This document shows positions 10,187-53,311 of a stretch of 64,000 nucleotides of DNA, one piece after another (the stretch's first letter is position 1; each line of letters begins with the position of its first letter). Origin of the DNA: Acidobacteriaceae bacterium. GTDB taxonomy: Bacteria > Acidobacteriota > Terriglobia > Terriglobales > Acidobacteriaceae. The translations under genes and the position numbers were made by a program. The notes below the pieces were generated by a model. It was given only the letters and a program-made list of their open reading frames with translations. It had not been told where the DNA came from and searched no databases. The stretch lies in NCBI GenBank assembly GCA_025350325.1, contig JANXYB010000109.1:1-64000 (forward strand), read 5' to 3'.

Positions 10187-10819
10187 ATGGAAGATGTGTT
10201 CAAGATGTACGCAATGGCGGACGGCAATACTAATCTCGAGCCGTCTGAGTCGAACGCCGATCACGAAGAAGACTTTGAAGAAGATGACGAGGTCGAAACA
10301 TCAAGCGTGCTCACCTCCTCCGATGACGATGAGGGAGTGCTCGATGAAGGCGTGATCTCTAGAAACGTAACCGCCCCAAAGCCGGCTAAAAAGGCCGCCA
10401 AAAAAGCTCCCGCAAAAAAAGCTGCTACAAAAGCTCCGGCCAAGGCCGCGGCAACCAAGGCTCCAGCGAAAAAGACGGCCGCCAAGAAGGCAGTTGCTAA
10501 AAAGGCCCCCGCCAAGAAAGCCGTAGCAAAGAAAGCAGCTGCGAAAAAGGTTGTGGTCAAGAAGGCCGCAAAGAAGTCCGCCCCTAAGAAAAAATCCACT
10601 GGCGCTAGAGGCGGAAAGGTCGCAGCCAAGAAGACTGCGGCAGGCAAGCGCGCCAGCAAACCCACCAAACGAGGTATCAAGTTGGCCGTTAAGAAAGCAG
10701 CAAAGAAGTCGCCCGCCAAGAAGGCAGCTAAGAAAGCTCCTGCAAAGAAGGCCCCGGCGAAGAAGGCAGCTAAGAAAGCCCCCGCGAAAAAGGCAGCAAA
10801 AAAGAAGTCCAGCAAGTAA
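10187..10819 (+). CDS. Histone H1-like Lys/Ala-rich DNA-binding protein
   Basis: A 210-aa protein in two parts. Residues 1-60 are strongly acidic (HEEDFEEDDEVE, SSDDDEG). Residues about 65-210 are a low-complexity array of AKKA, PAKKA and KKAPAKK units with Thr, Val and Ser variants. Such Lys/Ala/Pro repeats are typical of eukaryotic H1 C-terminal tails and bacterial H1-like proteins (for example Hc1 and AlgR3/AlgP), which condense DNA. ATG 10187 is chosen because GGAGG lies seven bases upstream; the frame is open from 10112, but the extra Arg-rich residues lack that support. A strong terminator follows. The acidic head is unusual and may moderate DNA binding (inference). Confidence 0.85.
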   Translation: MEDVFKMYAMADGNTNLEPSESNADHEEDFEEDDEVETSSVLTSSDDDEGVLDEGVISRNVTAPKPAKKAAKKAPAKKAATKAPAKAAATKAPAKKTAAKKAVAKKAPAKKAVAKKAAAKKVVVKKAAKKSAPKKKSTGARGGKVAAKKTAAGKRASKPTKRGIKLAVKKAAKKSPAKKAAKKAPAKKAPAKKAAKKAPAKKAAKKKSSK

Positions 10820-36600: not shown

Positions 36601-37947
36601 TTCGTAGTGGCGCACGAATTTCCTGGAATCGGCTGGAAGACGATGCTGGTCGGTGCCCAACGTATCGAGGATATCGCCGGCGGCGGCAGGGCAATGATTC
36701 TACTTGCTGTTGAAGACATTACAGAACGCAGGAGTGCTGAGGAAGCCGAGAAGCGGTTCTCTCAGGAGATTGAGAAGCAGGCGCGCACGTTTGACACCGC
36801 ACTCTCCTCCATCACGGACTTTGCCTATACATTTGACCGCTCCGGCCGTTTCGTATATGCCAACAAACCTCTTCTTGATGTGTGGGGCCTCACGCTGGAG
36901 CAGGCAGTTGGCAAGACCTTTTTTGAATTGCCCTATCCCCACGATCTCGCCCTCAAGTTTCAAGGCCAGATTCAACAGGTTTTCGCAACCGGGCAGAAGA
37001 TTACCGATGAGACGCAATATACAAGCCCTGCGGGAGCAGTTGGATATTACGAGTACATCTTCAACCCCATCATCAGCGCCGATGGAAACTGTGAAATGAT
37101 CGCGGGATCGACACGCGACGTAACGGGTCGGAAACAAGCAGAAGCAGCCCTGTTAAAATCGGAGAAATTAGCAGCTGCCGGACGTTTGGCTGCCACGCTC
37201 GCACACGAAATAAACAACCCACTGCAAGCCGTAACTAACCTGATGACGCTCTTGAAGCAGTCGCCAGCTCTGAGTTCAGAAGATCTGGCTCATGCCTCTA
37301 CGGCAGACGAAGAACTCGGCCGCATAGCGCATTTGACGCAGCAATCTCTGGGGTTTTATCGCGAATCGATTTTTCCGACGTCAGTCGATTTGGAGCAGGT
37401 GCTGGATAGCATCTTTACCCTCTACGCCAAGCGCACTAAGGCAAGAAACATTTCGATTACGAAACAATATCGGTCGGATGGAGCGACCATCGACAGCTAT
37501 CCGGGCGAGATTCGGCAAGTGTTTTCGACTCTCTTACTGAATGCCATGGAAGCCATTCCTGACAATGGAACGATTGCCATACGCGTTCGTCAAGGGGTTC
37601 ACTGGAAAGATGCAGCGGTGCATGGCATACAGATCGCATTTGCGGATAATGGTGTGGGAATTCCTGCCAAGAACAAATCGCACATTTTCGAACCATTTTT
37701 TACGACCAAGGGCGAGCAAGGCACCGGGCTCGGTCTTTGGGTTGCGAATGAGATTGTGAATCGCCTCGGCGGCTCCCTTCGTATGCGCAGCAGTGTTAAC
37801 CCTGAGAAGCGCGGTACCTGTTTCTCGATGTTCCTACCTGACAACCTGCCAGGGACTCTGGCGTCAAATGTAGGGCTTGCGGACGGTGTGCGGAATCGTC
37901 TCGGTAAGACTACGCGACTGCCCGCTGCAACTAAGGTGGGGATGTAA
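33685..37947 (+). CDS. CheB-CheR-PAS-histidine kinase hybrid protein
   Basis: A 1420-aa cytoplasmic signalling protein. CheB methylesterase domain about 50-235: Ser61 in VGASAGGLEAY, His in VVQHLDPNHQ, Asp in LSGTGADGTPGL. CheR methyltransferase about 260-530: WAPGCSTGEETYSLAM and NLLIYIQP. A PAS-like linker follows, then a coiled coil at about 715-780 (NEELQSTNEELETSKEEL), three PAS regions, and a HisKA/HATPase module: His1174 in LAHEINNPLQAV, N/G boxes ADNGVGIPAKN and GTGLGLWVANE. No receiver domain is present, so its target regulator lies elsewhere. The frame opens at TTG 33685; GTG 33754 is an alternative start. No chemotaxis genes are nearby. Confidence 0.9.
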   Translation: MNLFQSAHCRTDCLSDETECRRNVKSKSRAPRASSLVSLDTPDHALVAHDGSFPIVAVGASAGGLEAYTQLFRALPAKTGMAFVVVQHLDPNHQSKLSDLIAKTTKLPVEEVRSGVTVKVDHIYVIPPNAFLTIAEGVFSLTPRSKELGQHLAVNHFMRSLAENHGNKAIGVILSGTGADGTPGLETIKAEGGITFAQTPSTAKYDGMPQSAIDSGCVDFILPPKDIAAELLRIQHHPYVLQQEAVNEAAEANSPEPPLGDFAVILEELRRASLVDFSQYRPNTIQRRALRRMVILKLDSLSDYALYMKEHPDEGEKLYDDILIAVTSFFRDTEAFESLKKHVFPAIVADKANKGTIRIWAPGCSTGEETYSLAMTLLECLGDKASSFQVQIFGTDLNEKGIQKARAGIYRESIAEEVSPERLQRFFVKVANGYRVNKGVRDMCIFARQNLAVDPPFSQMNLVVCRNLLIYIQPVLQKKIIPILHYALKSPGFLMLGSSESVAAYPDVFSTVDKKQKIYSKKLSGRRLSYDFGNTFHPAEKGHPLPKRASQPRDLPVPEIDFQAEADRLVLKKHAPVGVVVNSAMEVVQFRGRTTPYLEPAPGRPTLNLLKLARNGLALELRSLINAATKKDVPVKKDAVAFDDNGHKRLLNLSVSPLGEKGSGYKRCFLVLFEPVLLPQATNSKGNGQPKTRETAQNKQEVKRLKLELADAMDALHAAVESEDSFKEEFQSVNEEILSANEELQSTNEELETSKEELQSANEELNTLTEELRNHNVDLSQLSNDLSNLLDAIRIPIVFVGADLRIRRFTSTATEIFRLLPSDIGRPITDIKHDLDVPDLAKMIQLTVANLVSTQREIKDVAGRWRSLEIRPYRTGDNRIEGAIVALPDIDRLKHSEQYLKQIIDNVPNPLLVLDQDLKILLANLSFCTTFEVSQAETAGQLLYRLGNEQWNIPKLKVLLEDVLTKKSFVRDFVVAHEFPGIGWKTMLVGAQRIEDIAGGGRAMILLAVEDITERRSAEEAEKRFSQEIEKQARTFDTALSSITDFAYTFDRSGRFVYANKPLLDVWGLTLEQAVGKTFFELPYPHDLALKFQGQIQQVFATGQKITDETQYTSPAGAVGYYEYIFNPIISADGNCEMIAGSTRDVTGRKQAEAALLKSEKLAAAGRLAATLAHEINNPLQAVTNLMTLLKQSPALSSEDLAHASTADEELGRIAHLTQQSLGFYRESIFPTSVDLEQVLDSIFTLYAKRTKARNISITKQYRSDGATIDSYPGEIRQVFSTLLLNAMEAIPDNGTIAIRVRQGVHWKDAAVHGIQIAFADNGVGIPAKNKSHIFEPFFTTKGEQGTGLGLWVANEIVNRLGGSLRMRSSVNPEKRGTCFSMFLPDNLPGTLASNVGLADGVRNRLGKTTRLPAATKVGM

Positions 37948-38163: not shown

Positions 38164-41100
38164 CTAATGCACAACTTGTGAGAGGGCTACCGACGTACTG
38201 CCCGCGTAGGTCGAGCTGCCGCTGTAGACCGCCGTGATGGAGTGAGTTCCGACAGCAAGCGTTGTGGTTGCAAAGCTTGCTGTCCCGCTGGTGAGAGTTG
38301 CAGTGCCAAGCATTGTTGCGCCATTTTTAAAGGTCACCGTGCCCGTGGGAGTTCCGGAAATGGAGGGATGAGCCTTCGCGGTGAAGGTAATTTTCTTTCC
38401 AACTCCTGCCGGGTTGAGCGAGGAGGTAAGGGTGGTGGTTGTTTTTTCGTGGACTACTGCGGTCACTGTCCCCGACGTGCTGTTGAAGAAGGTGGCTGCG
38501 CCAGAGTACGTCGCAGTCAGAGGATCACTGCCGACCGGGAGGGTTGTGGTTGTGAGCGTGGCAGCACCACCCGTGAGAGTGACTGTGCCAAGCGTGACAG
38601 TGCCGCGCTTGAAGGTCACTGTCCCGGTCGGCGTTCCCGACGGAGACGCTGCGACAACTGCCTTGAGAGCGACACTTTGCCCGTTGACTGATGGGTTTGG
38701 AGTAACGGTAAGTGTTGCGGTCGTTTTTGCTTTGACGGTGAAGGCGACTGATTTTGCCGTCTCAGTGTTGCCCGCGTTATCGGTGCTGAAGTACTTCAGA
38801 GTGTGGCCGCCCAAAGCCACCACATTGATGGGAGCGGAGTAGAGAGTGATTGCGCCGCCGTCCAACTGGTAAGACGTGCTTTGAACTCCGCTCAGGGCAT
38901 CCGTGGCGTTCAAAGTTACTTTCACGGCCGTGTCATACACTGCACCGTTCAGAGTGCCAGCTAGTGTCGCAGATGTCACTGGAGCGGTTTCGTCGATGTC
39001 GACATACTTGAATGGTTCTGGACTGAAGTTGCCGGCATTGTCCTCTGTGAAGTAGTAGATGTAGTGCTTTCCTGGTGCGCTGATGACAAACGGCGCGGTG
39101 TAAACAGCACAGGAGCCGAGAGTTCCTGACGAGCATGCTCCGGTATCAATCGCGTAGAAGGTCTTCTTGATACCTGAGGCGCCTGTGCCAGGGTCGGAAG
39201 GGCTGAGGGCTACCGTTACGGCTTGCTTGTTCCAACCTTTGCTGTCTGCGGCCGGGGAGCTTGCGATGCCTACAGTCGGCTTGACCGTGTCATAGCAGAG
39301 CCAATAATAGTATTGGTTTCCAGAGGTGATGCCGCTGTTGTCCCATGCATCGACAGTAGCGTAGTGGCATCCTTGTCCGGCCCAGGAGAGTTGGAGGTAT
39401 CCAGAGGTAGCGTTAGGAAATTGTGGACCGCTGTAAAAGGAGTTCCCGCTGCCAGGGGTAGCTTCTGAGGTGGGATCGCTGAACGCACTATCCCAAGCCT
39501 GGGAGAAACCAGCCACTCCGGTCGCAGGATAACCGCCGCCGGTATCGGTCACGGTCCAGCTTACTGTCTGATCGGTATTGAACCATGTGTTCGAGGTAGG
39601 ACTTACCGTGGGGCCGCTGAAATGCACTACCGGCGCGCCAAAGTCTCCGAGGTCATAGGTATTAAAACCCCATGCGAGTTGCAGAGCATTAAAAGATCCC
39701 CATCCTGTGACTGCGTCGTAACCAGCTGCGGCGCAATACGATCCGAGACCCCAATAAGCAGTGTCATCGTTACTGTTGCAGCCAGACTTGATGTCGTAGA
39801 AGGGGTAATGTGCTTCGTAGCTGGAGCCCGGGTGCTGCGCCAGCCAGTAGATCTTGTAGTCGATCTCGCCGAGTGGGGCCCCGCCGAGCCCTAAAGAAAG
39901 CAGATATGCATCGGCTTGAGCGACAAAGCCCGACATCATCGGAGAAGCGATGCTGGTCCCGGCCACTCCGCGCAGAGCTCCATTGAAGTAATAATTTTGG
40001 CCGGAGTGCGCGCTTGCGTTCAAAGCAATGTCGGGCACGCTACGGCTGCCGGCACCGCAATAAGGTGAAGACTGATAACCTGGCGCAGACCATTTGGCGC
40101 TGCAACCGCCTCCCGATCCACCATCATTGACAGAGCACGAGCCTGAAGACGAATCACCCGTCCAAGCTACTTCAGCAGCAAACGTGCCATCGCTGTAGAG
40201 TTCCAGTTGCGAACCGCCCACTGCAACGACATCGGGGTCTGATCCGGGATAGATTGTCGCAAGGAAATTGCCGCAACCTGTGGATGCGCCACCGTCACCT
40301 GACGCCGCCATAATAGTCCAGCCCTGGCCAATCATCTGGTTAAAGATGGCATGCCATGAGTTCATCACGCTGTCGGATACCCCGGCATATTCAGCGAGGC
40401 CGTAGCTGATGTTAACCACGCGTACATGATTGTCGGTCAACATCTGCTGATACAAAGTTCCGAAGGATCCGAATCCTGACGCAGCCTCGTAGACCCACAC
40501 TTGTGCTGTGTCTTGGTAAGACCCGCGGCTGTTAGAGGTGGCCACGGACCACTCCAGATCGAGCGTTGTCTCGTCGTCGCAGCAGTAGGGCGTTCCGCCA
40601 ACCCATACCCGGTGATAAAACCAGGCAAGGTACGGATACTGATTGTGAAAGCCTAGCCAATCGCTGTCTGCAAAATCTCCATCGGTAGCAAGACCAATCG
40701 AAGTCTCCACCGGCGAACCGTCCGAGTTGTGCAGCGGGTTGCAGCAATGCCCCTGAGCTTGAAGAGCGTTGTAGTCGTACCCATTTGAATTCCATATGTC
40801 TGTCGGATCGATAAAGCCGTTGGTGAGCTGCGATCCGATCTGGCTACCTTTTTGCTTTACGGCAGAAGGTTTCAGGAGTGCCTGCGAAGAATCGCCGTGC
40901 GATACAGGCCCCTCAATTCGCAGTGGACCGGGGCTGTAATCGGGGCCGCGGACGCCCTTGGTCCCTGCACCCGCGGGACGCATTCTCTGGATGCTGTTCA
41001 AGCCGTCGACCGACCCAATAATCTTTGCAAGATTGGCAGGGATGACCGGATCTCGATCGTTGGAAAACTCTACCTGACCATTCACGTCGTAGTTGTTGAT

Positions 41101-41595
41101 CGATATACGGAAGGCCTGCTGTATAGAGGCGACAGTTCCCTCGACGTTCACCATCAAACGATTGGGATATCTGGCGGTGACTGTCAACCCATTACTCTTG
41201 GCCCAATCCACAACGCCCTGTTCGTCTTGTGCAGACGGCGCGAAACGCTGGTTCCATTGTTCGGGAGTCACGTATTTGTGGAAGTTGGGCGACGACTTGT
41301 CTTGCAGTTCCTGCAGAAACTTTTCCTCTGCGGCCATGTTCGGCGGGGTGATTCCGATAGCGAGTCGCAATTTCGAATTGGCGTCGTACTGGTGAATCAG
41401 TTTAGCCGTCCCCATCAATACTTGGTGTGGTGTGGAAGAGTGGGCGATGGGCGAATCTTTAAGTGTGGAAATCTGTGGCTGCTGGCTCAATGCCATCAGG
41501 TTTGCGGCAACGAAAAACAAACCGGCGACAAGAGACACACATATGCTCAGCCTCCGAGTCGAGGTTCTGGCGGAAGTCAGGCCGTAATCACGCAT
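38164..41595 (-). CDS. S53 (sedolisin-type) serine-carboxyl peptidase with Ig-like tail
   Basis: A 1143-aa exported peptidase. After the signal peptide (about 15-36) comes a Pro-kumamolisin activation domain (about 55-200: FLQELQDKSSPNFHKYVTPEQW). The catalytic domain has Glu342 and Asp346 in DETTLDLEWSV, the oxyanion Asp434 in AASGDGGAST, and Ser548 in VAGTSIASPMMSGF. Residues about 690-960 hold two Ig/OmpL47-like modules (TAPVTSATLAGT, YQLDGG), and the last 180 residues two near-identical Big_3-like repeats (SGTPTGTVTFKRGTVTLGT / SGTPTGTVTFKNGATMLGT). Sedolisins act at acid pH, which fits an acidobacterium. All catalytic residues are intact. The N-terminal propeptide is cut on activation. 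Confidence 0.92.
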   Translation of the reverse strand: MRDYGLTSARTSTRRLSICVSLVAGLFFVAANLMALSQQPQISTLKDSPIAHSSTPHQVLMGTAKLIHQYDANSKLRLAIGITPPNMAAEEKFLQELQDKSSPNFHKYVTPEQWNQRFAPSAQDEQGVVDWAKSNGLTVTARYPNRLMVNVEGTVASIQQAFRISINNYDVNGQVEFSNDRDPVIPANLAKIIGSVDGLNSIQRMRPAGAGTKGVRGPDYSPGPLRIEGPVSHGDSSQALLKPSAVKQKGSQIGSQLTNGFIDPTDIWNSNGYDYNALQAQGHCCNPLHNSDGSPVETSIGLATDGDFADSDWLGFHNQYPYLAWFYHRVWVGGTPYCCDDETTLDLEWSVATSNSRGSYQDTAQVWVYEAASGFGSFGTLYQQMLTDNHVRVVNISYGLAEYAGVSDSVMNSWHAIFNQMIGQGWTIMAASGDGGASTGCGNFLATIYPGSDPDVVAVGGSQLELYSDGTFAAEVAWTGDSSSGSCSVNDGGSGGGCSAKWSAPGYQSSPYCGAGSRSVPDIALNASAHSGQNYYFNGALRGVAGTSIASPMMSGFVAQADAYLLSLGLGGAPLGEIDYKIYWLAQHPGSSYEAHYPFYDIKSGCNSNDDTAYWGLGSYCAAAGYDAVTGWGSFNALQLAWGFNTYDLGDFGAPVVHFSGPTVSPTSNTWFNTDQTVSWTVTDTGGGYPATGVAGFSQAWDSAFSDPTSEATPGSGNSFYSGPQFPNATSGYLQLSWAGQGCHYATVDAWDNSGITSGNQYYYWLCYDTVKPTVGIASSPAADSKGWNKQAVTVALSPSDPGTGASGIKKTFYAIDTGACSSGTLGSCAVYTAPFVISAPGKHYIYYFTEDNAGNFSPEPFKYVDIDETAPVTSATLAGTLNGAVYDTAVKVTLNATDALSGVQSTSYQLDGGAITLYSAPINVVALGGHTLKYFSTDNAGNTETAKSVAFTVKAKTTATLTVTPNPSVNGQSVALKAVVAASPSGTPTGTVTFKRGTVTLGTVTLTGGAATLTTTTLPVGSDPLTATYSGAATFFNSTSGTVTAVVHEKTTTTLTSSLNPAGVGKKITFTAKAHPSISGTPTGTVTFKNGATMLGTATLTSGTASFATTTLAVGTHSITAVYSGSSTYAGSTSVALSQVVH

Positions 41596-42435: not shown

Positions 42436-42569
42436 CTTCTTCATCTACGCAAGCAACGATAGAGTGTAGCGCACAGGGATCCACGCCCCGTGTTCATTTG
42501 TTTTCCCGCCCAAGGGGACGGGGGTCTTCGCAACTAAATCCAGTGTTATACTTGCGTTCTCTTAAGGTC

Positions 42570-43166
42570 GTGGAGAACGATTTGGAATTTTATGCATTCG
42601 ATGCGAGTTACATCGAAAGTCTGCGCGAAGGAGAACTTCATACGCAGGAGCATTTCGTACGATATTTTACTGAGCTGCTCCAGCTTAAGCTTCGCGGTCG
42701 TCTCCAATCCCCGCAGGCCATCGAGGACGTTCGCCAGGAAACATTCGCCCGAGTTTTAACATCGCTGCGCAAAGAGAATGGCTTGCGTCAGCCTGAAAAA
42801 CTGGGTGCCTTCGTTAATACGGTTTGCAACAACGTTCTGTTTGAGTATTACCGCTCTTCTACGCGCAGCGACTCGCTTGATGAGGAGGGCTGCCCCGAGC
42901 CCGCCGCAACTGATGCGGATGCGCTCAGCATCGTCACCTCCAGACAGATCGAAGTAGAAGTCCGAGAGATTCTGCTAGGCATGCCACACCGCGATCGCTC
43001 CGTCTTAAAAGCTGTTTTTCTTGACGAACGCGATCGCGACGAAGTGTGTCGCGAGTTTGGCGTAGACAGGGAATATTTGCGGGTTCTGCTCCATCGTGCC
43101 AAGCAGGAATTCAAGGTCGAGTATCTAAAGCGAACCGAAGTGAGACCACATGCAACAAAAGCTTGA
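42570..43166 (+). CDS. ECF-type RNA polymerase sigma factor
   Basis: A 198-aa sigma factor. Region 2 contains HFVRYFTELLQLKLRGRL, IEDVRQETFARVLTSLRKE and FVNTVCNNVLFEYYR; a linker with Glu/Asp/Pro follows; region 4 has ILLGMPHRDRSVLKAVFLDE, RDEVCREFGVDREYLRVLLHRAKQE. GTG 42570 is chosen as the likely start, since homologues begin near here and the upstream in-frame codons overlap another gene and look random; the true start could be GTG 42543. The anti-sigma gene follows and the frames overlap (ATG 43150 lies inside this gene). The two proteins form a regulatory switch. Confidence 0.85.
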   Translation: MENDLEFYAFDASYIESLREGELHTQEHFVRYFTELLQLKLRGRLQSPQAIEDVRQETFARVLTSLRKENGLRQPEKLGAFVNTVCNNVLFEYYRSSTRSDSLDEEGCPEPAATDADALSIVTSRQIEVEVREILLGMPHRDRSVLKAVFLDERDRDEVCREFGVDREYLRVLLHRAKQEFKVEYLKRTEVRPHATKA

Positions 43167-43224
43167 TACGAATAGGCGGGCTGGTACACCATTTCTTGTA
43201 ATGCACCGACGAGGGGTCGGACCG

Positions 43225-43926
43225 ATGGATCATAGCGAAGCGGTTGAACAAATGGCTACCGAAAGATATCTGCTCGATGATATGACGCCCGAACTCCGCG
43301 AGGCATTCGAAGAGCACTTGTTCGATTGCCCGGAGTGCGCCCTCGATTTGCGCGCTGGAGCCTCGTTTGTAGATGAGGCGAAGAAACAGCTTCCTCAGCT
43401 TACGACCCAGCCTGCGATTCCGGGTACGCCAGCTCACGCCAAGCCGTCCGCCAAAAAGCGAGATTGGTTTGCCTGGTTGCAGCCGGCTTTTTCGGTCCCT
43501 GCGTTTGCCCTTTTGCTACTTTTCACTGGCTATCAAAACTTCGCCACCATCCCTGCGATGCGGCTGGCAGCGAGCCAGCCCCGCCTGCTGCCCTGGGTTT
43601 CTTTCCATGCTGGAACCCGTGGCGCTGCACACATACCCGTGCTCGCAGATCCGAAACAAGGCGCGGTGCTCGTGATCGACCTGCCTCAGAATTCGACGTT
43701 TACGTCCTATGCATTCGAATTGTACGATCCGCAAGGCAAGAGATTTTGGACTAACACCATCGCCGCTTCCAAGGAGACGAGCGGGGGAGAAAAATCCAAC
43801 TCTTTATTGATTCCGGGGTCGGGATTGCAGCAGGGTTCTTATACACTCGCCATATCCGGAGTCAGCTCAGACGGCGGACGTACCGAGATTGACCGGCATG
43901 TCTTTGACATTCACTTCGACGAGTGA
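43225..43926 (+). CDS. Membrane-bound zinc-finger anti-sigma factor
   Basis: A 233-aa protein. The N-terminal part MDHSEAVEQMATERYLLDDM, AFEEHLFDCPECALDL carries the His-x3-Cys-x2-Cys zinc motif of the ZAS fold that clamps ECF sigma factors. A Pro-rich linker leads to one TM helix (about 85-105: AFSVPAFALLLLFTGY). The periplasmic domain of about 125 residues is beta-rich (VLVIDLPQNSTFTSYAFELYD, SLLIPGSGLQQGSYTL). ATG 43225 matches the family's usual start and has GAGGGG upstream; an earlier ATG (43150) overlaps the sigma gene by 17 bases. Its release from sigma probably needs proteolysis or a ligand; a candidate protease gene is two genes downstream. Confidence 0.85.
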   Translation: MDHSEAVEQMATERYLLDDMTPELREAFEEHLFDCPECALDLRAGASFVDEAKKQLPQLTTQPAIPGTPAHAKPSAKKRDWFAWLQPAFSVPAFALLLLFTGYQNFATIPAMRLAASQPRLLPWVSFHAGTRGAAHIPVLADPKQGAVLVIDLPQNSTFTSYAFELYDPQGKRFWTNTIAASKETSGGEKSNSLLIPGSGLQQGSYTLAISGVSSDGGRTEIDRHVFDIHFDE

Positions 43927-43953
43927 GCCCCAGACAGCTTAGAAAGTAGACAC

Positions 43954-44799
43954 ATGGCAGACGAATCAAACAGAGAACATTGGTACCATGCCGAGGCGAC
44001 TGTCCTTGAAGGACATTTACGACTGCCCCTTGAGGCAGTGATCAAACCTCAAGCCTTTGCGAAGCTACGCGAGCGGGGCGGATACCTATCCCAACATGAT
44101 CAGGGCTATCGACTCGAGGGGATCCTCTCGTATCGCTCCGCATATACGCAAGTTGCGGGCAATCGCGATCTAAAGCCCGATCACGGATGGACCACCCTGG
44201 CCACATCGGTGGTCGAAAAACTGAATGTGCTTGACGTTGTTACCGCCGATCGCATCGTGTCGCAGGTGTCGATCGAGCATCCGCTTTCAGGTTACGTGCC
44301 GGCAATCACCTTTCTCGGCACACGCTTTGAAAACCTGCGCATCGCCGGGCATCCGGTCAGGCTGGACCTGGACCTGAATATTGCTGGAGGCAAACCGCAG
44401 AACGATATGCACTACTCGAGCGATCGCGATTTTATGCATCGAGTCACAACCCAACACGAGCGTATGCGCTCGTATCCCGATCTTCCAGTTGACCTTTTGA
44501 AGCGATACAATCAACTTCCTACTAAAGAGGACAACCTGGAGTCGATCGAATGCTCACTGGTCAACCAAGCGGATGGTTCCTTCCCTGGACGATCCTTTGG
44601 CCACGTGATCGACGTTCCGCACTTTGGCAAGATTTATCTGGCGACCTTGGACATCGATCAAGAGGACTTCCACCTGGACACTGGCATACCCAAGCAGACC
44701 CTGATCAGTCTGACCATGATTCGACTCGAAATGGGATGTCTCGCCGACGGAACGCTCCGCATCTGCCAGTCGATCGTCAACGGACGCACCAGGCCGTAG
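43954..44799 (+). CDS. Unknown 281-aa protein in the sigma/CHAT cluster
   Basis: I do not recognise this protein. It has no signal peptide or TM helix, and is rich in beta-strand patterns: HAEATVLEGHLRLPLEA, RLEGILSYRSAYTQVAGNRD, LNVLDVVTADRIVSQVSIEH, FLGTRFENLRIAGHPVRLDL. The VVTADRI...FENLRIAG part is loosely like a strand pattern in secreted choice-of-anchor proteins, but this is not enough for an assignment. It begins 28 bases after the anti-sigma stop and its end overlaps the CHAT gene by 64 bases, so it is part of the same transcription unit. It could be a partner or substrate of the CHAT protein (inference). Confidence 0.75.
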   Translation: MADESNREHWYHAEATVLEGHLRLPLEAVIKPQAFAKLRERGGYLSQHDQGYRLEGILSYRSAYTQVAGNRDLKPDHGWTTLATSVVEKLNVLDVVTADRIVSQVSIEHPLSGYVPAITFLGTRFENLRIAGHPVRLDLDLNIAGGKPQNDMHYSSDRDFMHRVTTQHERMRSYPDLPVDLLKRYNQLPTKEDNLESIECSLVNQADGSFPGRSFGHVIDVPHFGKIYLATLDIDQEDFHLDTGIPKQTLISLTMIRLEMGCLADGTLRICQSIVNGRTRP

Positions 44800-47249
44800 T
44801 TTGGCTCCTTCTTCTGTTTGCGCTGTCGGTACCGCTTACCTGTAATCGCGGTCTTTCAGCAGAGGCCGAAGTGGAGCGCGTCAGGGTGCTGTTTCAACAC
44901 GGAGAGCTCGCGCAGAGCCAGGAATTAGCGGCGCGATGTGCACGCAGATTTCAAAATATCAACCCATACTGGTCATCGAGATTGAGGGTTCTCTCGGCCG
45001 AATCGGCGGCATGGCGTGGGCTCGATTCAGAAGTACTTGAGGCGCTCACGTCTCGACCTGCTGCGCCGCTAAGTCCTGACATTGAGATACAGCGGTTGTC
45101 TCTTCTCGGGTCGGCGCACGCTCACCTGCACCAATTCGACGAGACGCGGCGTGAGTTCGCGCAAGCTGAGAAGTTGTGTTCAGACAATCACGTTAGAATT
45201 TGCGGGGAGTTGTGGCGCGCCCAAGCTGGTTTCGCGATCCAGCGTGGTCGATTTCAAGAAGCCTACCAACTCTACGCGCGCAGTCTGCTCACCGCACGAA
45301 GTTTTGGAAGCCATTGGGACGAATCTGTAGCAATGACGAATCTCGGTGTTGCGTGCCTACTCCAAGAACGATTTGACGAGGCTATTGACTGGTCACATGC
45401 CGCAAGCAAACTCGCAAGCACCCTGGGTGCGAATGACCTGCTGCTCAACGACGACGGCAATCTGGGCTGGGCGTTTTACAAACTAGGTGACCGTGAGCAG
45501 GCACTGGATATGTTCACGCAAGCTGAGAAGCGCTCAATCGCGCTTGGTGACTCGGGCGGCGCAATCACGTGGTTGACCACTGCCGGTTATGTTTACCAGG
45601 ATGACAAGGATCTGAACCGCGCCGCTCAATCGTATCTGCAAGCACTTACGCTGGCGAGGCAAATCAATAGTAAGGAAGACATAGTCAATTCTCTTGAATC
45701 GCTCATCCACGTTTCGATCGAGAGCGGCAAGCTGGATCAGGCGTCAACTTACCTGCAGCAAATTGACCCTTTGATCAGCGCCAACCAAAATCCACTGGAT
45801 ACGCTCGATGTAAACCTTGCGCGCGGTAAAGTCGCTGTGCTGCAGCGCCACGATCGACAGGCTCAAGCGCTATTGATCTCAGTTGAGAACGATCAGCAAA
45901 GCCAGACTTCCATGCGGTTCGGAGCTCAACATGCATTAGCTCGCTTATATGCATTACAAGGAAACTTGAGCGCCGCCGATCGCATGTATCAGACCGCACT
46001 TGGGACCTTTGAATCGCAGCGTGCGCTGCTCAAGAATGAGGATTCCAAACTCCCTTTTCTTTTGAATGCCACGCCTGTCTACGACGATTACATTTCGTTC
46101 CTCATAACCCAGCATAAGTCAGACCAGGCCCTCGCCGTGGCTGACCAGAGCCGCGCCCGAACATTGGCGCAAGGCCTGGGCCTCGAAAATAAATTGATCG
46201 CCGCTTCTATGCATCCAGAACAGATTGCAAAGAAGTCAGGTGCGACGCTCCTCTTCTATTGGCTCGGCGCGAAGCAATCGTATCTATGGGCAATCACGCG
46301 ACACGAGACCTCGCTCTTCCTGCTGCCCCCAGAGCGAGACATCACTCCACTGGTTGAGCGATATCGTAAGGCTCTGCTTGGACCAGACGATGCGATCGAT
46401 GAACCCAATGAAGATGGCGAGGCGCTGTATCGCATCCTGGTCGAACCCGCAAAGCATCTCATTGCTGCCGACTCACCGGTAGTGATCCTGACCGATGGCG
46501 CACTCAGCCAAATCAATTTCGAGACACTGGTGGTGCCCGATTCGCATCCCCATTACTGGATTGAAGACGTCACGCTAACTTCCGCGCCCTCGCTCGCGAT
46601 GCTTGGATCGTCGTCTTCACTCGAGCAACTCGGGAAAAAATTGCTCCTGCTCGGCAATGCTGTATCCCCGAGCCAGGACTATCCAGAATTGCCCATGGCA
46701 CGGCTTGAAATGCAAGAGATTGCGAAGCATTTCACGGCCGGAAATGGAACCGTATTCGCTCGGCAACAGGCAAACTCAATCGCCTATCTAACCAGCGCGC
46801 CGCAACAATATACATACATTCATTTTGTCGCTCATGGAGTTTCAAGCCGCAGCGATCCGCTGGACTCAGCCATCATCCTTTCGCGAACCAACAGCACAGA
46901 AGAATCATTCAAGCTATATGCTCGCGAAATCATCAAACACCCCATCCATGCTCGCCTCGTCACGATTTCCACATGTTATGGCAACGGCACTCGCTCCTAC
47001 GCGGGCGAAGGGCTCGTAGGTTTGTCGTGGGCCTTTCTCCGGGCCGGCGCGCACAATGTTATTGGTGCGCTGTGGGAGGCAAGCGACCAATCCACTCCTC
47101 GCCTCATGGACGCACTCTATCAGGGTCTTCACGACGGATTGCCACCTTCTGTAGCGCTTCGCCAAGCGAAACTTTCACTTCTACATTCGCAGGTGAACTT
47201 CCGCAAACCATTCTTCTGGGCTCCGTTTCAGCTCTACACCGGACTTTGA
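44736..47249 (+). CDS. Exported TPR-CHAT protein (caspase-like peptidase)
   Basis: An 837-aa protein. A signal peptide or anchor (VVWLLLLFALSVPLTCN) is followed by TPR repeats from about 40 to 430 (GNLGWAFYKLGDREQALDMFTQAEK, QSYLQALTLARQINSKEDIV). The CHAT domain runs about 510-837: residues YIHFVAHGVSS with His700 and VTISTCYGNG with Cys747 form the caspase-type dyad, and GEGLVGLSWAFLRAGAHNVIGALWEASDQST is the conserved C-terminal block. The dyad is intact. Start ATG 44736 lies inside the preceding gene; the frame opens at 44550, but that part is out of phase with real sequence. CHAT proteins are proteases in several defence and death systems. Confidence 0.88.
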   Translation: MSRRRNAPHLPVDRQRTHQAVVWLLLLFALSVPLTCNRGLSAEAEVERVRVLFQHGELAQSQELAARCARRFQNINPYWSSRLRVLSAESAAWRGLDSEVLEALTSRPAAPLSPDIEIQRLSLLGSAHAHLHQFDETRREFAQAEKLCSDNHVRICGELWRAQAGFAIQRGRFQEAYQLYARSLLTARSFGSHWDESVAMTNLGVACLLQERFDEAIDWSHAASKLASTLGANDLLLNDDGNLGWAFYKLGDREQALDMFTQAEKRSIALGDSGGAITWLTTAGYVYQDDKDLNRAAQSYLQALTLARQINSKEDIVNSLESLIHVSIESGKLDQASTYLQQIDPLISANQNPLDTLDVNLARGKVAVLQRHDRQAQALLISVENDQQSQTSMRFGAQHALARLYALQGNLSAADRMYQTALGTFESQRALLKNEDSKLPFLLNATPVYDDYISFLITQHKSDQALAVADQSRARTLAQGLGLENKLIAASMHPEQIAKKSGATLLFYWLGAKQSYLWAITRHETSLFLLPPERDITPLVERYRKALLGPDDAIDEPNEDGEALYRILVEPAKHLIAADSPVVILTDGALSQINFETLVVPDSHPHYWIEDVTLTSAPSLAMLGSSSSLEQLGKKLLLLGNAVSPSQDYPELPMARLEMQEIAKHFTAGNGTVFARQQANSIAYLTSAPQQYTYIHFVAHGVSSRSDPLDSAIILSRTNSTEESFKLYAREIIKHPIHARLVTISTCYGNGTRSYAGEGLVGLSWAFLRAGAHNVIGALWEASDQSTPRLMDALYQGLHDGLPPSVALRQAKLSLLHSQVNFRKPFFWAPFQLYTGL

Positions 47250-47665
47250 TTTGTTCCCCACCTTAATCCTGCGCGGTGGAGCCACGTTTGAAGACACGTT
47301 CGGATCGGAAGCCAAATCATGTTGACTCCAAGCCCTCCGTTGGTACGCTCGATGGAAATCAATTTTAGTACCCAATCTTTTTGGTTACCTTTTCCCTTTT
47401 TTGCTTTAGATTGGACAGAGAAATCCATATTAAAGATAAATTGCAGCCCAACGGCAGACAGATTAACAAATTAAACACAATATTATGAATAATTTAGAAC
47501 AGATGAACTAATGTAACCGCGTAGTGGTGTCTTTGGTGCACAGCCGTGTACCAACTAGGTTACTATCAATCCACTTCTTCTTTTACTTCCAAGCGCGCCA
47601 GTCCCGGTCCAGGGGCAAATTTGCCTTCGGGAAAGCCATGCGCATTTTTGCTGAGGTATCGCCGA
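47250..47665. other. AT-rich intergenic region before the giant lipoprotein
   Basis: About 415 bases. From about 47,380 to 47,545 the sequence is much more AT-rich than its surroundings, with runs such as AATATTATGAATAATTTAG. Probable promoter zone of the downstream gene, but no box can be fixed. Short frames here are not supported. Confidence 0.45.
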
Positions 47666-50600
47666 ATGCACACATTTGTGTTCCGCACTCTTTTAAATCA
47701 GGGCCCTAAGGCGTTTAACCATCGCTGTACTGGCCTTTTTGCTTCACTTGTCTTGAGCTTGGTTTTCTCGGGTTGCGGCGGTACAAGAGTCAATACAACG
47801 ATTGGCGGAGCCGTCACCCCATCCTCCAACGCAGTCGCGTTCGGCGCAGTGGAGATTGGTCAATCCGCTAGCAGCAACATCACCCTGGCTAATCAGAGCG
47901 CAGGCCCGGTCGAAATCTCAAAACTTGACCTGAGTGGAAACTTCTTTTCTTTTTCAGAGAACAGCAATCTCCCCATTACGCTGGGAGCCGGAAGCACGCT
48001 CTCGTTGAACGTAAAGTTCGTCCCAACCGCGGAAGGCACTTCCACCGGGTCGGTGTCCATCGCCAGCAATTCGCCGACTTCCCCCCAAACTCTCATCAGC
48101 TTGACCGGTACTGGTACCATCAAAAATCTCGCATCCGTAAGTTCGTTGTCCTGCAGCAGCGTATCCGTTGCCGGGCCGGCGACCGATGCCTGCACAATAA
48201 CCCTGAGCACGAACGCGCCCTACTCCGGGTTTCCCGTGAACTTGTCGAGCAGCGATGCAGCCGTCTCGGTGCCGCCCACCGTGACCGTGTTAGCCAACAA
48301 CTCCACCGGTACATTTACGGCAACGGTTTCTGCTACCGGAACCGCCCGGCCGGCGACTCTCACCGCAAGCGCAGCAGGCATTTCCAAGACTTTCGGCTTG
48401 CAGTTGGTGGCCGCAAATTCGCCTATCTTAAGCTTCGCTCCCGATCTGGCTTTTGGAAATGTGGTTGTGAATACCCCGACCACGAAATCATTTCTTGTGA
48501 CCTCGGCAGGCACCGTGCCCGTTACGATCAGCAGAGCGTCGGCGACGGGAAGCGGCTTCTCATTTAGCGCGGCAACCCTGACGAGCACCGCCTTCTCAAT
48601 GGCAGGCGCCACATTCCCGATGACCTTACGCCCAGGTCAGTCGGCTTCCGTCACAGTTCAATTCGATCCGACGGCGGCGGGCAGCGTTACCGGAAAACTG
48701 GCAATTGCAACGGACTCGTCTATCAGCCCGAATGCAATCGTAAGTTTGAGTGGAACTGGAGTCACATCCGACAATCCGAACAACACGGGAGTGAGCGCTC
48801 TGTCGTGCGACCATGCTTCGCTGACGGGATCAGGCACAGATGCCTGCACGGTAACCCTTACCAGCAACGCGCCTAGCGGCGGCTTGGTTGTGAATATGTC
48901 GAGCAACGGTTCCGAAGTGACGGTGCCGCTCACGGTAACAGTTCCAGAAAAGGCGAGCAGTATTGGATTCATTGCGAATGCTGCGGCGGTCACTGCGAAC
49001 AAGTCCATAACACTCACGGCCAGCGCCGACAAGACTTCGAAGACCTTCTCACTCGAACTGAATGCCACAACGCCTGTGCTGAGCTTGAGTTCAACCAGCC
49101 TGGCCTTCGGCAGCACCACAGTTAACGCACCGGCAACCAAGGGCCTGACATTGACCTCGACGGGGAATGCATCCGTTACGATCAGCGCGGCTACACTCAG
49201 CGGAACGGGCTTCACAATGTCGGGTGCAACCTTCCCGATAACCTTGAGCCCCAATCAATCTGCAGAGCTCACCGTCAAGTTCGACCCGGTCACTGCTGGA
49301 GCGACTACCGGGCAGGTGACGGTAATCAGCAATTCACACGTGAACCCCACTATGAACGTGGGCCTCAGCGGAACAGGAACCACACCAAACACTGCTGCGC
49401 TCAACGATCTCACTTGCGCCAACACTTCCTTGACTGGCGCGGGCACTGATTCATGTACGGTGACACTCAGTGCGCCGGCACCGTCGACCGGAATGAATGT
49501 GCACCTCTCGAGCAGCAATGCGGTCATCGCATTGCCAGCCAATGTAGTCATCCCCGCAAACGCTTCGAGCATAGGTTTCACCGTCAATGTGGCACAGGTA
49601 AACACACCGCAATCGGTCATGCTCACAGCCACCGCCGGCAGCGCGGCCAAGACTCTCGCGCTGCAACTGAATGCCGTCTCACCGACCATCACAATCAGTA
49701 CGAACAGTCTCGCGTTTGGGAGCGTTGCGTTGAATACGGCAGCGACCAAGACAGTGATCGTGAGTTCAACTGGAAATGGTCCCCTTACCATCAATTCCGC
49801 GAACGCGACGGGTACAGGATTTACTGTCTCAGGCGCATCCTTCCCTGTAACATTGACTCCGAATCAGGCTGTAGAGTTGACCGTTCAATTCGTACCGGCC
49901 GGGTCGGGAGTTGCGACGGGAATGCTGATCATCAACAGCAACTCCGCGACTAGCCCGACTAGTACAGTTGGTCTCAGCGGCACTGGAACCATTAATACGG
50001 CACTTACAGCGCTCGCCTGCACCACTTCGACTTTTACCGCGACAGGCACCGATGCATGCACGGTAACACTCACCGCACCCGCGTCAACCGGCGGATTCAA
50101 TGTCAGGCTGTCGAGCAGTAATGCGGCTGTCAATGTTCCCAGTTCCGTGACGGTTCCGGCAAACGCAAATAGTGCTGGATTTTCCGCGACCGTTTCCTCA
50201 GTGGCGACCGCACAAACGGCAAACATTACCGCCAGTGCAGGCAGTAATTCGCAAGTACTAGCGCTCCAGTTGAATGCAGCAACCCCGGCGCTCACCGTCA
50301 CCAGTTCGAGCGTTGCATTCGGCAATATCGCGGTGAACGCGTCGACAAACAAGTCGGTGACGCTCACCTCGACTGGCACGGTGCCTGTGACCCTTAACTC
50401 AGCATCCATTTCCGGTGCGGGCTTCACAGTATCGGGAGCAACATTCCCGTTGACCCTAAACCCGTCGCAGGCCGTATCGTTAACAATTCAATTCGCCCCG
50501 ACGGTTTCAGGCTCCGCGACTGGAAGCCTGCTCATCAACAGCAATTCCTCAACCGGCCCCACCGCCGCCGTCGCCCTCAGCGGCACGGGAACTATAACCG

Positions 50601-53311
50601 CTGCACTGAGCGCGCTCACCTGCAGCAACGCGTCATTCACTGGAGCGGGCACCGATGCCTGCACCGTGACGCTGACCGCACCCGCACCGACCGGGGGGTT
50701 GAGCATAGGCTTGTCGAGCAGCAATACAGCAGTTGCAGTGCCCTCTTCCGTTACAGTACCCGCTAATGCAATTAGCGCCGCATTCACCGCCACCGTATCA
50801 CGGGCCGCCACTGCGCAGGCAGTTACGCTTGCGGCCAGCACCACCAGCAATTCCGCCAGCTTTTCATTGCAGCTGAATGCCGCAACACCTTTACTTACCA
50901 TCAGTGCGACCGGCCTGGACTTTGGCAATGTGCAAGTGGACACATCTGTAACCAAGTCGCTTACATTGACTTCAACCGGCTCGGTGGCGGTCACGGTCAG
51001 CGCTGCATCCCTTACCGGCTCGGGATTCACGATGTCCGGCGCCACGTTCCCCTTGAACCTGAATCCCAACCAGACAGTATCGCTTTCACTACAGTTTGAT
51101 CCCGCCGCTGCGGGCAACGCGATGGGGCAGTTGACTTTCACCAGCAATTCTTCAACTAACGCCACTTCGGTCGTCAGCCTCACTGGTACGGGAACTTCAA
51201 CATCGACACTGAGTGGATACGCCTGCAGCAGCGCCTCCCTCTCAGGTGCAGCAACCGATGCTTGCACGGTGACGCTGAACAGCGCCGCGCCGGCCAGTGG
51301 TGTGGACGTAGTCCTCAACTCCAGCAACCCTGCGGTATCGCTGCCCGTAATCGTGACGGTGCCGGCCAACGCGCTCACCGCTACTGTCACTGCCACGATT
51401 TCACCTGTCAGTTCGGCGCAGTCGGTCACGCTCACTGCCACCGCGGGCAGCGTTTCAAAAACGTTCGCCTTGCAGTTAAATGCGTCTCAGATTGTTGCAA
51501 TTTATGTCGATGGCAAAGCTGGTTCCGATTCTTCCGCCGGAACATACGCTGTGCCGCTCAAGACCATCCAGGCTGCAGTGAACAAGGCGGACGCGAACAA
51601 TCAAAAATCCATCGCCACGACAATCATCGTTAATCCCGGCGTATATCGCGAGTACGTAAATGTCCCGAGAATCTCGCGTCAGACCGCGGCCACTCTTACG
51701 ATACAAGCAGCTGCAACAGGCACCGTTATCATTTCCGGCTCCAACGTTTTGAGCAACTGGACGCCGGAATCCGGCAATCCCTCAATCTATTCAAACCCTT
51801 GGCAATATAAGTTTGGCGCTTGCGCGCTTCCTTCTGGCTGGCCAGCCAATCTTGAGCCAATCACTCTGCGCACCGAAATGCTCTTCGTTGATCACGCCCC
51901 GCTCACCCAGGTCATGCACTCGTCTGACCTGCAACCAGGAACATTCTTCGTCGATGAAGCAAATTCCTCGATTCATGCATGGCCTGCGGCAGGCACGGAT
52001 ATGCAGACTGCCCTTGTTGAGGCTGCCGTTCGGCCTAACACTCTCAATGTTTCAGGTCGCACAAATGTGACCTTGCGCGGCCTTGTCCTGCAACATGCGA
52101 ACACCTGCATCAACCGCAGCGGAGCCAATATAATGAGCAGCTCCAATGTGCTCATTGATCAGGTGCAGGCACTCTGGAACAGCTGGGGTGGCCTGGGGGT
52201 TTCTTCCTCGACCGCCGTCACCGTGCAAAACTCGATTGCCAATTACAACGGCGGCGTCGGCTTCCTCGCCAATCAGGATCAGAATGCTCTCTACAACTTT
52301 AATGAGACCGACTACAACAACTGGCGCGGAGCACAAGGAGCCTTCTACGAGTGGGCGATGGGTGGCACGAAACTGTTTGCTATGCGCGACACCACCGTAC
52401 AAAACCACTTCTCCTATAACAACCAGGGAGAAGGCCTATGGTTTGACACCGACAATAAAAACATTACTGTCGATAATGCCACCCTGGTCGGGAATGTAAC
52501 GGCTGGCCTCCAGATCGAAAGAAATGAAGGGCCACTCACTCTCCAGAATAGTCACCTCTGCTCGAGCGGCGTCGGCGTCAATGTACTCACCAGCGAAAAA
52601 GTGACCATCAAGAATAATTCTTTCTATAACAACGGTGGCACCAACAAATACCAGGCGCAGATTTACCTTGCGGGACAGGCCGGTGGAATCAACATCACCG
52701 ACTGGCAGACAGGCCAGGTGTACAACCTGTTCACTACCGGCTTGGTGATGACTGGGAATACGCTGCAGGACGGCGCAGTCGGACAGAATCTTTTTGGAAC
52801 CTATTTGGCCGGCACCGACTGGTCCGAATTTGCAACTACACTCAATGCGAGCAACAACAAGTGGTATGACTCGTCGAGCTCAACACCGTTCAAGATACTC
52901 AACGGCAAGCTCGTAAATCTTGCCGGTTGGCAAAGTGCTACTGGCACAGACTACACATCCGTGTGGGCAGCTACCTCAGCCTCCCCGGCAAGTGCCTGCG
53001 CTGTGCCCACCCCGTCGTATGCCGACTTTCACGTAGATGTCGACAAGGGGAGTTACACCATGTCCTCAGGGCAGGCGGTAGCCACAATCCACGTGGATTC
53101 GTTTAACTATGGAAATGTCACTTTGCACGCTACGGGAATGCCGGCGGGTGTCACTGCATCGATCAGCCAGCCAAATCTGGTGGGCGGCTTGGTGAAACTT
53201 ACGCTCTCAGCAAACGCCAGCGCAACTGCGCAGACCCTGCCGATCACGCTATGGGCCGCCAGCAGCGACCGTGTGCATAGCGTAACGTTCAGGTTGGCCG
53301 TGGCTCCGTAG
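47666..53311 (+). CDS. Giant repeat lipoprotein with C-terminal beta-helix
   Basis: An 1881-aa surface protein. The signal peptide ends in lipobox LVFSGC (Cys37), so it is lipid-anchored. From about residue 40, a choice-of-anchor D/ASH-like module (FGAVEIGQSASSNITL) is followed by six tandem units of about 201 residues, each an Ig-like half with Cys and TDACTVTL and an ASH-like half ending SLSGTGT. The last third (from about 1275) is a right-handed parallel beta-helix like pectate lyase/NosD proteins: YVDGKAGSDSSAGTYAVPLKT, VTLRGLVLQHANTC, NALYNFNETDYNNWRG. A final beta domain follows. It may bind or cut polysaccharide; no catalytic set was confirmed. ATG 47666 has GAGG upstream; GTG 47546 is rejected. 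Confidence 0.85.
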   Translation: MHTFVFRTLLNQGPKAFNHRCTGLFASLVLSLVFSGCGGTRVNTTIGGAVTPSSNAVAFGAVEIGQSASSNITLANQSAGPVEISKLDLSGNFFSFSENSNLPITLGAGSTLSLNVKFVPTAEGTSTGSVSIASNSPTSPQTLISLTGTGTIKNLASVSSLSCSSVSVAGPATDACTITLSTNAPYSGFPVNLSSSDAAVSVPPTVTVLANNSTGTFTATVSATGTARPATLTASAAGISKTFGLQLVAANSPILSFAPDLAFGNVVVNTPTTKSFLVTSAGTVPVTISRASATGSGFSFSAATLTSTAFSMAGATFPMTLRPGQSASVTVQFDPTAAGSVTGKLAIATDSSISPNAIVSLSGTGVTSDNPNNTGVSALSCDHASLTGSGTDACTVTLTSNAPSGGLVVNMSSNGSEVTVPLTVTVPEKASSIGFIANAAAVTANKSITLTASADKTSKTFSLELNATTPVLSLSSTSLAFGSTTVNAPATKGLTLTSTGNASVTISAATLSGTGFTMSGATFPITLSPNQSAELTVKFDPVTAGATTGQVTVISNSHVNPTMNVGLSGTGTTPNTAALNDLTCANTSLTGAGTDSCTVTLSAPAPSTGMNVHLSSSNAVIALPANVVIPANASSIGFTVNVAQVNTPQSVMLTATAGSAAKTLALQLNAVSPTITISTNSLAFGSVALNTAATKTVIVSSTGNGPLTINSANATGTGFTVSGASFPVTLTPNQAVELTVQFVPAGSGVATGMLIINSNSATSPTSTVGLSGTGTINTALTALACTTSTFTATGTDACTVTLTAPASTGGFNVRLSSSNAAVNVPSSVTVPANANSAGFSATVSSVATAQTANITASAGSNSQVLALQLNAATPALTVTSSSVAFGNIAVNASTNKSVTLTSTGTVPVTLNSASISGAGFTVSGATFPLTLNPSQAVSLTIQFAPTVSGSATGSLLINSNSSTGPTAAVALSGTGTITAALSALTCSNASFTGAGTDACTVTLTAPAPTGGLSIGLSSSNTAVAVPSSVTVPANAISAAFTATVSRAATAQAVTLAASTTSNSASFSLQLNAATPLLTISATGLDFGNVQVDTSVTKSLTLTSTGSVAVTVSAASLTGSGFTMSGATFPLNLNPNQTVSLSLQFDPAAAGNAMGQLTFTSNSSTNATSVVSLTGTGTSTSTLSGYACSSASLSGAATDACTVTLNSAAPASGVDVVLNSSNPAVSLPVIVTVPANALTATVTATISPVSSAQSVTLTATAGSVSKTFALQLNASQIVAIYVDGKAGSDSSAGTYAVPLKTIQAAVNKADANNQKSIATTIIVNPGVYREYVNVPRISRQTAATLTIQAAATGTVIISGSNVLSNWTPESGNPSIYSNPWQYKFGACALPSGWPANLEPITLRTEMLFVDHAPLTQVMHSSDLQPGTFFVDEANSSIHAWPAAGTDMQTALVEAAVRPNTLNVSGRTNVTLRGLVLQHANTCINRSGANIMSSSNVLIDQVQALWNSWGGLGVSSSTAVTVQNSIANYNGGVGFLANQDQNALYNFNETDYNNWRGAQGAFYEWAMGGTKLFAMRDTTVQNHFSYNNQGEGLWFDTDNKNITVDNATLVGNVTAGLQIERNEGPLTLQNSHLCSSGVGVNVLTSEKVTIKNNSFYNNGGTNKYQAQIYLAGQAGGINITDWQTGQVYNLFTTGLVMTGNTLQDGAVGQNLFGTYLAGTDWSEFATTLNASNNKWYDSSSSTPFKILNGKLVNLAGWQSATGTDYTSVWAATSASPASACAVPTPSYADFHVDVDKGSYTMSSGQAVATIHVDSFNYGNVTLHATGMPAGVTASISQPNLVGGLVKLTLSANASATAQTLPITLWAASSDRVHSVTFRLAVAP
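48130..51490 (+). repeat. Six tandem ~603-bp coding repeats
   Basis: The TDACTVTL-type motif starts at 48182, 48836, 49445, 50048, 50651 and 51254. Spacing is 654, 609, 603, 603 and 603 bases, so the last four copies are exactly 201 codons apart. The copies diverge in sequence but keep phase. This suggests expansion by unequal recombination, with older copies at the start. Confidence 0.85.

Follow-up and report, generated by a model that had tools for sequence, protein, structure and literature searches.

CHAT proteases are best known from immunity and from settings with clustered regularly interspaced short palindromic repeats (CRISPR), and the locus described here raises the question of what such a caspase-like protein might do when its gene adjoins those of a sigma factor and a membrane anti-sigma factor. 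The locus lies in an Acidobacteriaceae bacterium (GenBank assembly GCA_025350325.1, contig JANXYB010000109.1, positions 1 to 64,000), and this whole 64-kb stretch is called the window; the gene coordinates below are window positions. Four open reading frames (ORFs) adjoin in it, encoding an extracytoplasmic function (ECF) sigma factor, a zinc-finger anti-sigma factor, a 281-amino-acid (aa) protein and a protein with tetratricopeptide repeats (TPR) and a CHAT domain. The answer that we favor, with a probability of about one in two, is a CRISPR-free, envelope-facing sigma switch in which the exported CHAT protein would cut the stalk of the anti-sigma factor and so release sigma. The features are as follows.

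42544..42552, + strand: putative extended -10 element (TGnTATACT) of the sigma-A type ahead of the sigma gene, from a consensus match
42570..43166, + strand: ECF sigma factor, above the TIGR02937 cut-off (E 3.2e-12); conserved start probably TTG 42582
43150..43926, + strand: membrane anti-sigma factor (zf-HC2, E 1.4e-5); conserved start probably ATG 43225
43954..44799, + strand: 281-aa all-beta protein (U281), choice-of-anchor-P-like, no export signal (NF040603 matches, AlphaFold2 model)
44736..47249, + strand: TPR-CHAT protein, predicted to be exported, 837 aa, with the catalytic-type dyad His700/Cys747 (PF12770, E 1.2e-48)

The initial annotation had placed four ORFs at 42570..47249 and described them as partly overlapping; the placement was confirmed, and the overlaps held in part. 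Those of the 281-aa and CHAT genes (44736-44799) overlap if ATG 44736 is used, whereas the sigma/anti-sigma overlap may not be real, because Met26 of the anti-sigma factor (ATG 43225) is nearly invariant among 59 aligned anti-sigma factors. The sigma protein scores 46.4 bits against the TIGR02937 sigma70-ECF model (cut-off 42.9) and also matches the Pfam sigma-region models, but with scores below their cut-offs. Its conserved start is probably TTG 42582 (194 aa), with GGAG at 42572-42575; this start is kept in 16 aligned leaders, one of which has GTG, and the other choice would be GTG 42570 (198 aa).

Conservation of this neighborhood in related genomes was the test on which the reading had been staked beforehand, and the gene order proved to be clearly kept in two sets of loci whose genomes are partly shared. 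An anti-sigma match at E <= 1e-3, in many cases a weak or partial one, was obtained in 119 of 299 genomes of the class Terriglobia; the first set was drawn from these 119 and consists of 40 that match at E 6.2e-15 or better. CHAT and a relative of the 281-aa protein are present in 40/40 of these loci and the full order in 37/40, the exceptions being L088 and L092, which have no sigma match, and L090, which is rearranged and has none either; L078, L080 and L092 give only a weak match for the 281-aa protein, and the CHAT gene of L069 is spread over two frames. The second set was picked by the 281-aa gene, for which 35/99 related genomes, own included, have a match, and comprises 78 loci from an alignment scan of genome contigs. 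All four genes occur in 69 of the 78, although in L145, L146, L149, L165, L170 and L176 one of them spans two frames or has an extra copy. Seven of the remaining nine are cut by contig ends, L144 is without an adjoining CHAT gene (its genome encodes a CHAT protein, 45% identical to the window's, that is unlinked to the cassette), and L110 has another sigma/anti-sigma pair. Across the 78 loci (73 to 78 per gene), median identity to the window is 68% for sigma, 44% for anti-sigma, 48% for the 281-aa protein and 45% for CHAT.

The order is complete in the cultured Terracidiphilus gabretensis S55, Granulicella aggregans, Edaphobacter lichenicola and Acidicapsa dinghuensis. In a phylum sample of 297 genomes, a profile match was obtained in 19, of which 11 belong to the window's family and 8 share only its phylum; nine loci from those 8 include three with the full order (L202, L204 and L205), the others being partial, cut or without it. 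A Myxococcota metagenome-assembled genome (L178) has exactly the same four genes, with a lipoprotein-like signal on its CHAT protein. Since the order recurs across genera, in other lineages of the phylum and in one other phylum, the grouping is more than chance.

The anti-sigma factor scores 25.5 bits against zf-HC2 (cut-off 22.2), and His28, His56, Cys60 and Cys63 are invariant in the alignment of 59. Its AlphaFold2 model, built with 59 sequences, has a mean predicted local distance difference test score (pLDDT) of 83.8 and consists of zinc-finger domain helices (28-85), one long transmembrane helix (112-142) and a confident beta-sandwich ectodomain (149-256), in keeping with the single transmembrane helix and periplasmic domain first ascribed to the protein. 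With both family models above cut-off and a transmembrane helix in the model, the first two genes can be assigned as a predicted pair of ECF sigma and zinc-finger (ZAS) anti-sigma factor. Foldseek matches of the model at E < 0.001 are a phage connector protein, CopC, fibronectin type III domains and other beta-sandwiches. The stalk, at about residues 141-160, is a low-confidence stretch of the model. In an alignment of 120 sequences, the best-kept spots of the periplasmic part are the juxtamembrane Tyr128-Arg138 and the pair Arg157-Gly158; Arg157 is kept in 106/120, and an Arg aligns there in the Myxococcota protein too. Separase and gingipain R, peptidases of clan CD, cleave after Arg, and we put forward Arg157-Gly158 in the stalk as a cut-site candidate only.

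In the fourth protein, a TPR match stands alongside the CHAT domain. The dyad motifs start at 699 and 746 in the 837-aa reading from ATG 44736, so that the numbering His700/Cys747 in the initial annotation is correct for this reading, and both residues are conserved in relatives: His in 62/63 and Cys in 63/63 aligned rows, the odd row being a fragment of the broken gene in L069 whose aligned "Cys" is an alignment artefact, and both residues in 24/24 rows of a second comparison. Having a CHAT domain with a His-Cys dyad, the protein can be assigned as a predicted CHAT peptidase (clan CD). When the CHAT profile was compared with PDB entries, the best match was 8rot (E 6.6e-4), followed by Csx29 (E 1.4e-3), with separase weak (E 0.015 to 0.019).

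The N-terminus of the window's CHAT protein has a basic n-region and then a hydrophobic segment at residues about 18-36, which reads LLLLFALSVPLTC and is not a standard lipobox. A hydrophobic segment ahead of the TPR part recurs in 61/65 long CHAT frames. Outside the window's genus, 27/40 CHAT frames carry a strict lipobox (about 15% in shuffles), while frames from the genus itself have mostly lost the lipobox (2/17) but kept the hydrophobic segment (17/17); in a further CHAT set, the lipobox was found in 4/8 and the hydrophobic segment in 6/8. The export segment claimed at the outset is thus present in the window and in relatives, despite the database gene model P0121 (100% identical), which at 787 aa starts past the segment and hence hides the most informative feature of the protein. 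From the signal segment, the basic n-region and the lipobox in relatives, we predict that CHAT is periplasmic, exported or lipid-anchored on the same side of the membrane as the anti-sigma ectodomain.

The window's genome encodes two CHAT proteins, and the second places CHAT and an anti-sigma-like part in one chain. At this locus (L210:2951-7419, contig C73), an ECF gene is followed by a gene for one protein with two HxxxCxxC motifs at its N-terminus, a transmembrane helix, TPR and CHAT; its dyad is complete. Matches to this fused protein at E <= 1e-60 were found in 7/121 genomes of the class, own included (3/8 matches are partial), and a sigma gene lies upstream in all four distinct fused loci examined (L210/L212, L213, L214 and L215). 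In PDB entry 8rot, the N-terminus has a stretch in common with 8rlz, deposited as anti-sigma DdvA, and its match to the anti-sigma profile is weak (E 0.023). Because of 8rot and the fused loci, anti-sigma factor and CHAT can be said to occur as one chain in nature. A hybrid arrangement, found in one genome (L110:2915-5846, also L040), has a sigma gene and a gene for a 366-aa HxxxCxxC-transmembrane-TPR protein that lacks CHAT, and the 281-aa and CHAT genes come next; its sigma is 37% identical to the sigma of the fused locus (E 1e-38), and the 366-aa protein shares 35% identity with the N-terminal third of the fused protein (E 3e-40). Given the predicted export of CHAT together with the fusions, it is probable that CHAT acts jointly with the anti-sigma ectodomain, in the same compartment.

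We therefore turn to how the preferred switch might operate. The zinc-finger anti-sigma factor would hold the ECF sigma factor at the inner face of the membrane, with a short stalk carrying its beta-sandwich ectodomain in the periplasm. The TPR-CHAT protein would be exported and membrane-held, as a lipoprotein in most relatives outside the genus and by a signal peptide or anchor within it. On meeting a ligand or stress signal through its TPR part, the CHAT cysteine protease would cut the stalk, perhaps at Arg157-Gly158, after which a site-2 protease would finish the anti-sigma factor and sigma would be freed; the genome encodes an M50 protease of the site-2 type (E 4.1e-61). The 281-aa protein would stay in the cytosol and serve the separate CHAT protein, for example as guard or chaperone.

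Several points weigh against this switch. The cleavage of the anti-sigma factor by CHAT is something we infer, as are the cut site and the signal, and the role given to the 281-aa protein is a guess. M50 proteases are near universal, with 14/14 control genomes having one. Arg157 is missing from 14/120 anti-sigma factors, though these too come from CHAT cassettes or from contig-cut ones, and the CHAT frames scored for export were read from stop to stop, with no start codon required. In the fused proteins, the HxxxCxxC motifs were read by eye, the N-terminus is unmatched by the anti-sigma profile at E <= 0.01, no Pfam zinc finger was called, and a pattern search of the four fused loci gave Cys in 4/4 and His in 3/4. 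Lastly, CHAT in the fusions could work by conformation instead of proteolysis.

Taken further, this last point makes CHAT a non-cutting periplasmic sensor or scaffold that, on binding a ligand, tugs at the ectodomain or shields it, altering the grip of the anti-sigma factor on sigma. The joining of the two parts in one chain fits such conformational coupling as well as it fits cutting, and the ectodomain is a compact beta-sandwich. We nevertheless consider a non-cutting CHAT unlikely, since catalysis is the best explanation for a His and a Cys that are kept throughout the class and in the Myxococcota protein as well.

CHAT might instead be the output, an exported caspase-like effector switched on by sigma, with the anti-sigma factor sensing alone. 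Effectors often share an operon with their regulator, and in L110 the 281-aa and CHAT genes remain neighbors despite a different kind of sigma/anti-sigma pair. The promoter region speaks against it. A loose -10 pattern is present at this spot in 40/58 upstream regions, and its TATACT part is nearly invariant in the 16 leaders, which were hand-picked from those 40 for alignment. The putative sigma-A-type element ahead of the sigma gene suggests that all four proteins are made together before activation, and such co-production of CHAT with the anti-sigma factor weakly favors a sensor-protease over an induced effector. A pure output is likewise hard to reconcile with the occurrence of CHAT and an anti-sigma-like part in one chain, and on balance we judge the effector to be an improbable account, on a par with the scaffold. 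In the same leader (42544-42600), CTC/CTCC is able to pair with the GGAG ahead of sigma's TTG; covariation is too weak for a claim of a regulatory hairpin.

The 281-aa protein had been proposed as a second possible substrate of CHAT in the periplasm, and this proposal was not supported. From stop to stop its frame in the window has 290 codons, leaving 9 codons upstream, and an export segment was found ahead of it neither there nor in any of 136 relative frames, 69 of which leave 15 codons or fewer, while the other 67 all lack a hydrophobic segment at that place; it is thus unlikely to be a periplasmic substrate. The AlphaFold2 model is all-beta, with a mean pLDDT of 93 and two helices within an insert. 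No PDB relative was found by sequence profile, and a fold comparison of the model gave no convincing relative. NCBIfam NF040603 (choice-of-anchor P) was matched at E <= 0.01 by 61/77 members, window included, with a best E of 3.6e-11. Choice-of-anchor P proteins have a signal peptide and a surface anchor; the window's protein scores 18.1 bits, below the family cut-off of 27, and lacks the export segment, so it was not assigned to the family. A 281-aa relative was not detected within 12 kb around the genome's fused CHAT gene, nor in the short flanks of three other fusions, and the gene keeps company with a separate CHAT gene even where the sigma pair differs (L110). Staphostatins are guards of exported cysteine proteases, and with low confidence we suggest by analogy that the 281-aa protein may be a cytosolic guard of this kind.

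Two oddities concern this gene. In L165 (4929-7030) it is seemingly duplicated inside the cassette, the second copy being split over two frames. L209 (4296-6449) has a 718-codon frame with an N-terminal hydrophobic segment and two stretches resembling the 281-aa profile, in a stretch of 7.4 kb that gave no CHAT, sigma or anti-sigma match.

That CHAT has its target elsewhere in the envelope, for example in a surface protein, or that its substrate is the 281-aa protein, carried to the periplasm along some path not seen here, we regard as very unlikely: the L209 protein and the name choice-of-anchor P, which NCBI gives to the related family, lend it something, but the lack of an export segment in the window and the relatives argues against it.

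Other genes of the window were noted in passing. Just upstream of the cassette lies a protein with a pro-kumamolisin activation domain and bacterial Ig repeats (38164-41595, - strand), and farther off a CheB-CheR-PAS-histidine kinase fusion protein (33685-37947). Downstream of CHAT is a 1921-aa protein (47546-53311) that combines several Ig repeats of the HYDIN/ASH type with a right-handed beta helix.

Proteolysis of the RseA/DegS/RseP type is the familiar form of regulated anti-sigma cleavage. The cassette resembles it in that the anti-sigma factor is membrane-bound with a periplasmic domain and an envelope protein is the candidate site-1 protease. It differs in the kind of enzyme proposed for site 1, a cysteine protease of the caspase-like type in place of a PDZ serine protease. 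Such proteolysis is also mentioned in a report on type III-E CRISPR (PMC10028731). For the group ECF54, PMC8999054 describes CHAT-domain and protease genes near the ECF sigma factor and the anti-sigma factor as lacking; a cognate anti-sigma factor is present in our cassette, and it is this, not ECF grouping, that sets the cassette apart.

Another close counterpart is DdvA (deposited names of PDB 8rlz, 8rot and 8rw5), which combines a zinc-finger-type ECF anti-sigma factor, a transmembrane-like region and CHAT with His and Cys. Its partner DdvS is an ECF sigma factor that becomes active once DdvA is inactivated, by a signal given as unknown in PMC4374960. In DdvA, anti-sigma factor and CHAT form one 991-aa chain, whereas in the window CHAT is separate and predicted to be exported, and the 281-aa protein is added. 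The window thus has two genes in place of the DdvA-type single polypeptide, and with the one-chain form at L210 the genome holds both arrangements. A widespread class of envelope signaling can be imagined, in which site 1 of an ECF pathway is cut by a caspase-like protease that is secreted and lipid-anchored. It would exist in a split form, whose cytosolic beta-protein keeps the protease harmless before export, and in a fused form, the two exchanging sigma/anti-sigma modules; we hold this to be possible but doubtful.

In type III-E CRISPR, according to PMC10028731, Csx29 cleaves Csx30, an inhibitor of CASP-sigma, and the cleavage is linked to sigma release. Both systems have a TPR-CHAT protease, an ECF-like sigma factor, a sigma inhibitor and one extra conserved gene (csx31 there). 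They differ in that the inhibitor in the window, which matches zf-HC2, is a membrane zinc-finger anti-sigma factor and the CHAT protein is predicted to be exported. No Csx30-named chain is among the 16 PDB matches (E <= 1) of the anti-sigma factor, nor among those of the 281-aa profile. The CRISPR-free setting described at the outset was borne out: no CRISPR array-like repeats were found in the window, and Rfam gave only a tRNA. The sole direct-repeat family at the settings used is a Lys/Ala-rich, histone H1-like one at 10397-10810, which is not CRISPR. A type III-E CASP (Craspase) would have an array and Cas7-11 beside TPR-CHAT, and we did not assign the locus to it, the window having no such repeats and Cas7-11 not having been searched for. 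The wiring is less novel than first implied, given PMC10028731 and the deposited structure of the CHAT-bearing DdvA; in an open-access literature search, the four-gene cassette was not named in titles or abstract openings among the matches listed. As far as these searches go, the cassette is new as a variant, the combination of CHAT, ECF sigma and inhibitor being already known from type III-E CRISPR. Occurring in soil Acidobacteriota, some of them cultured, it offers a CRISPR-free case for a direct test of sigma release by a caspase-like protease; a candidate cut site can be named, and the genome itself supplies a natural counterpart in one chain. Should the widespread class imagined above be real, type III-E CRISPR would be one branch of a broader CHAT-sigma logic.

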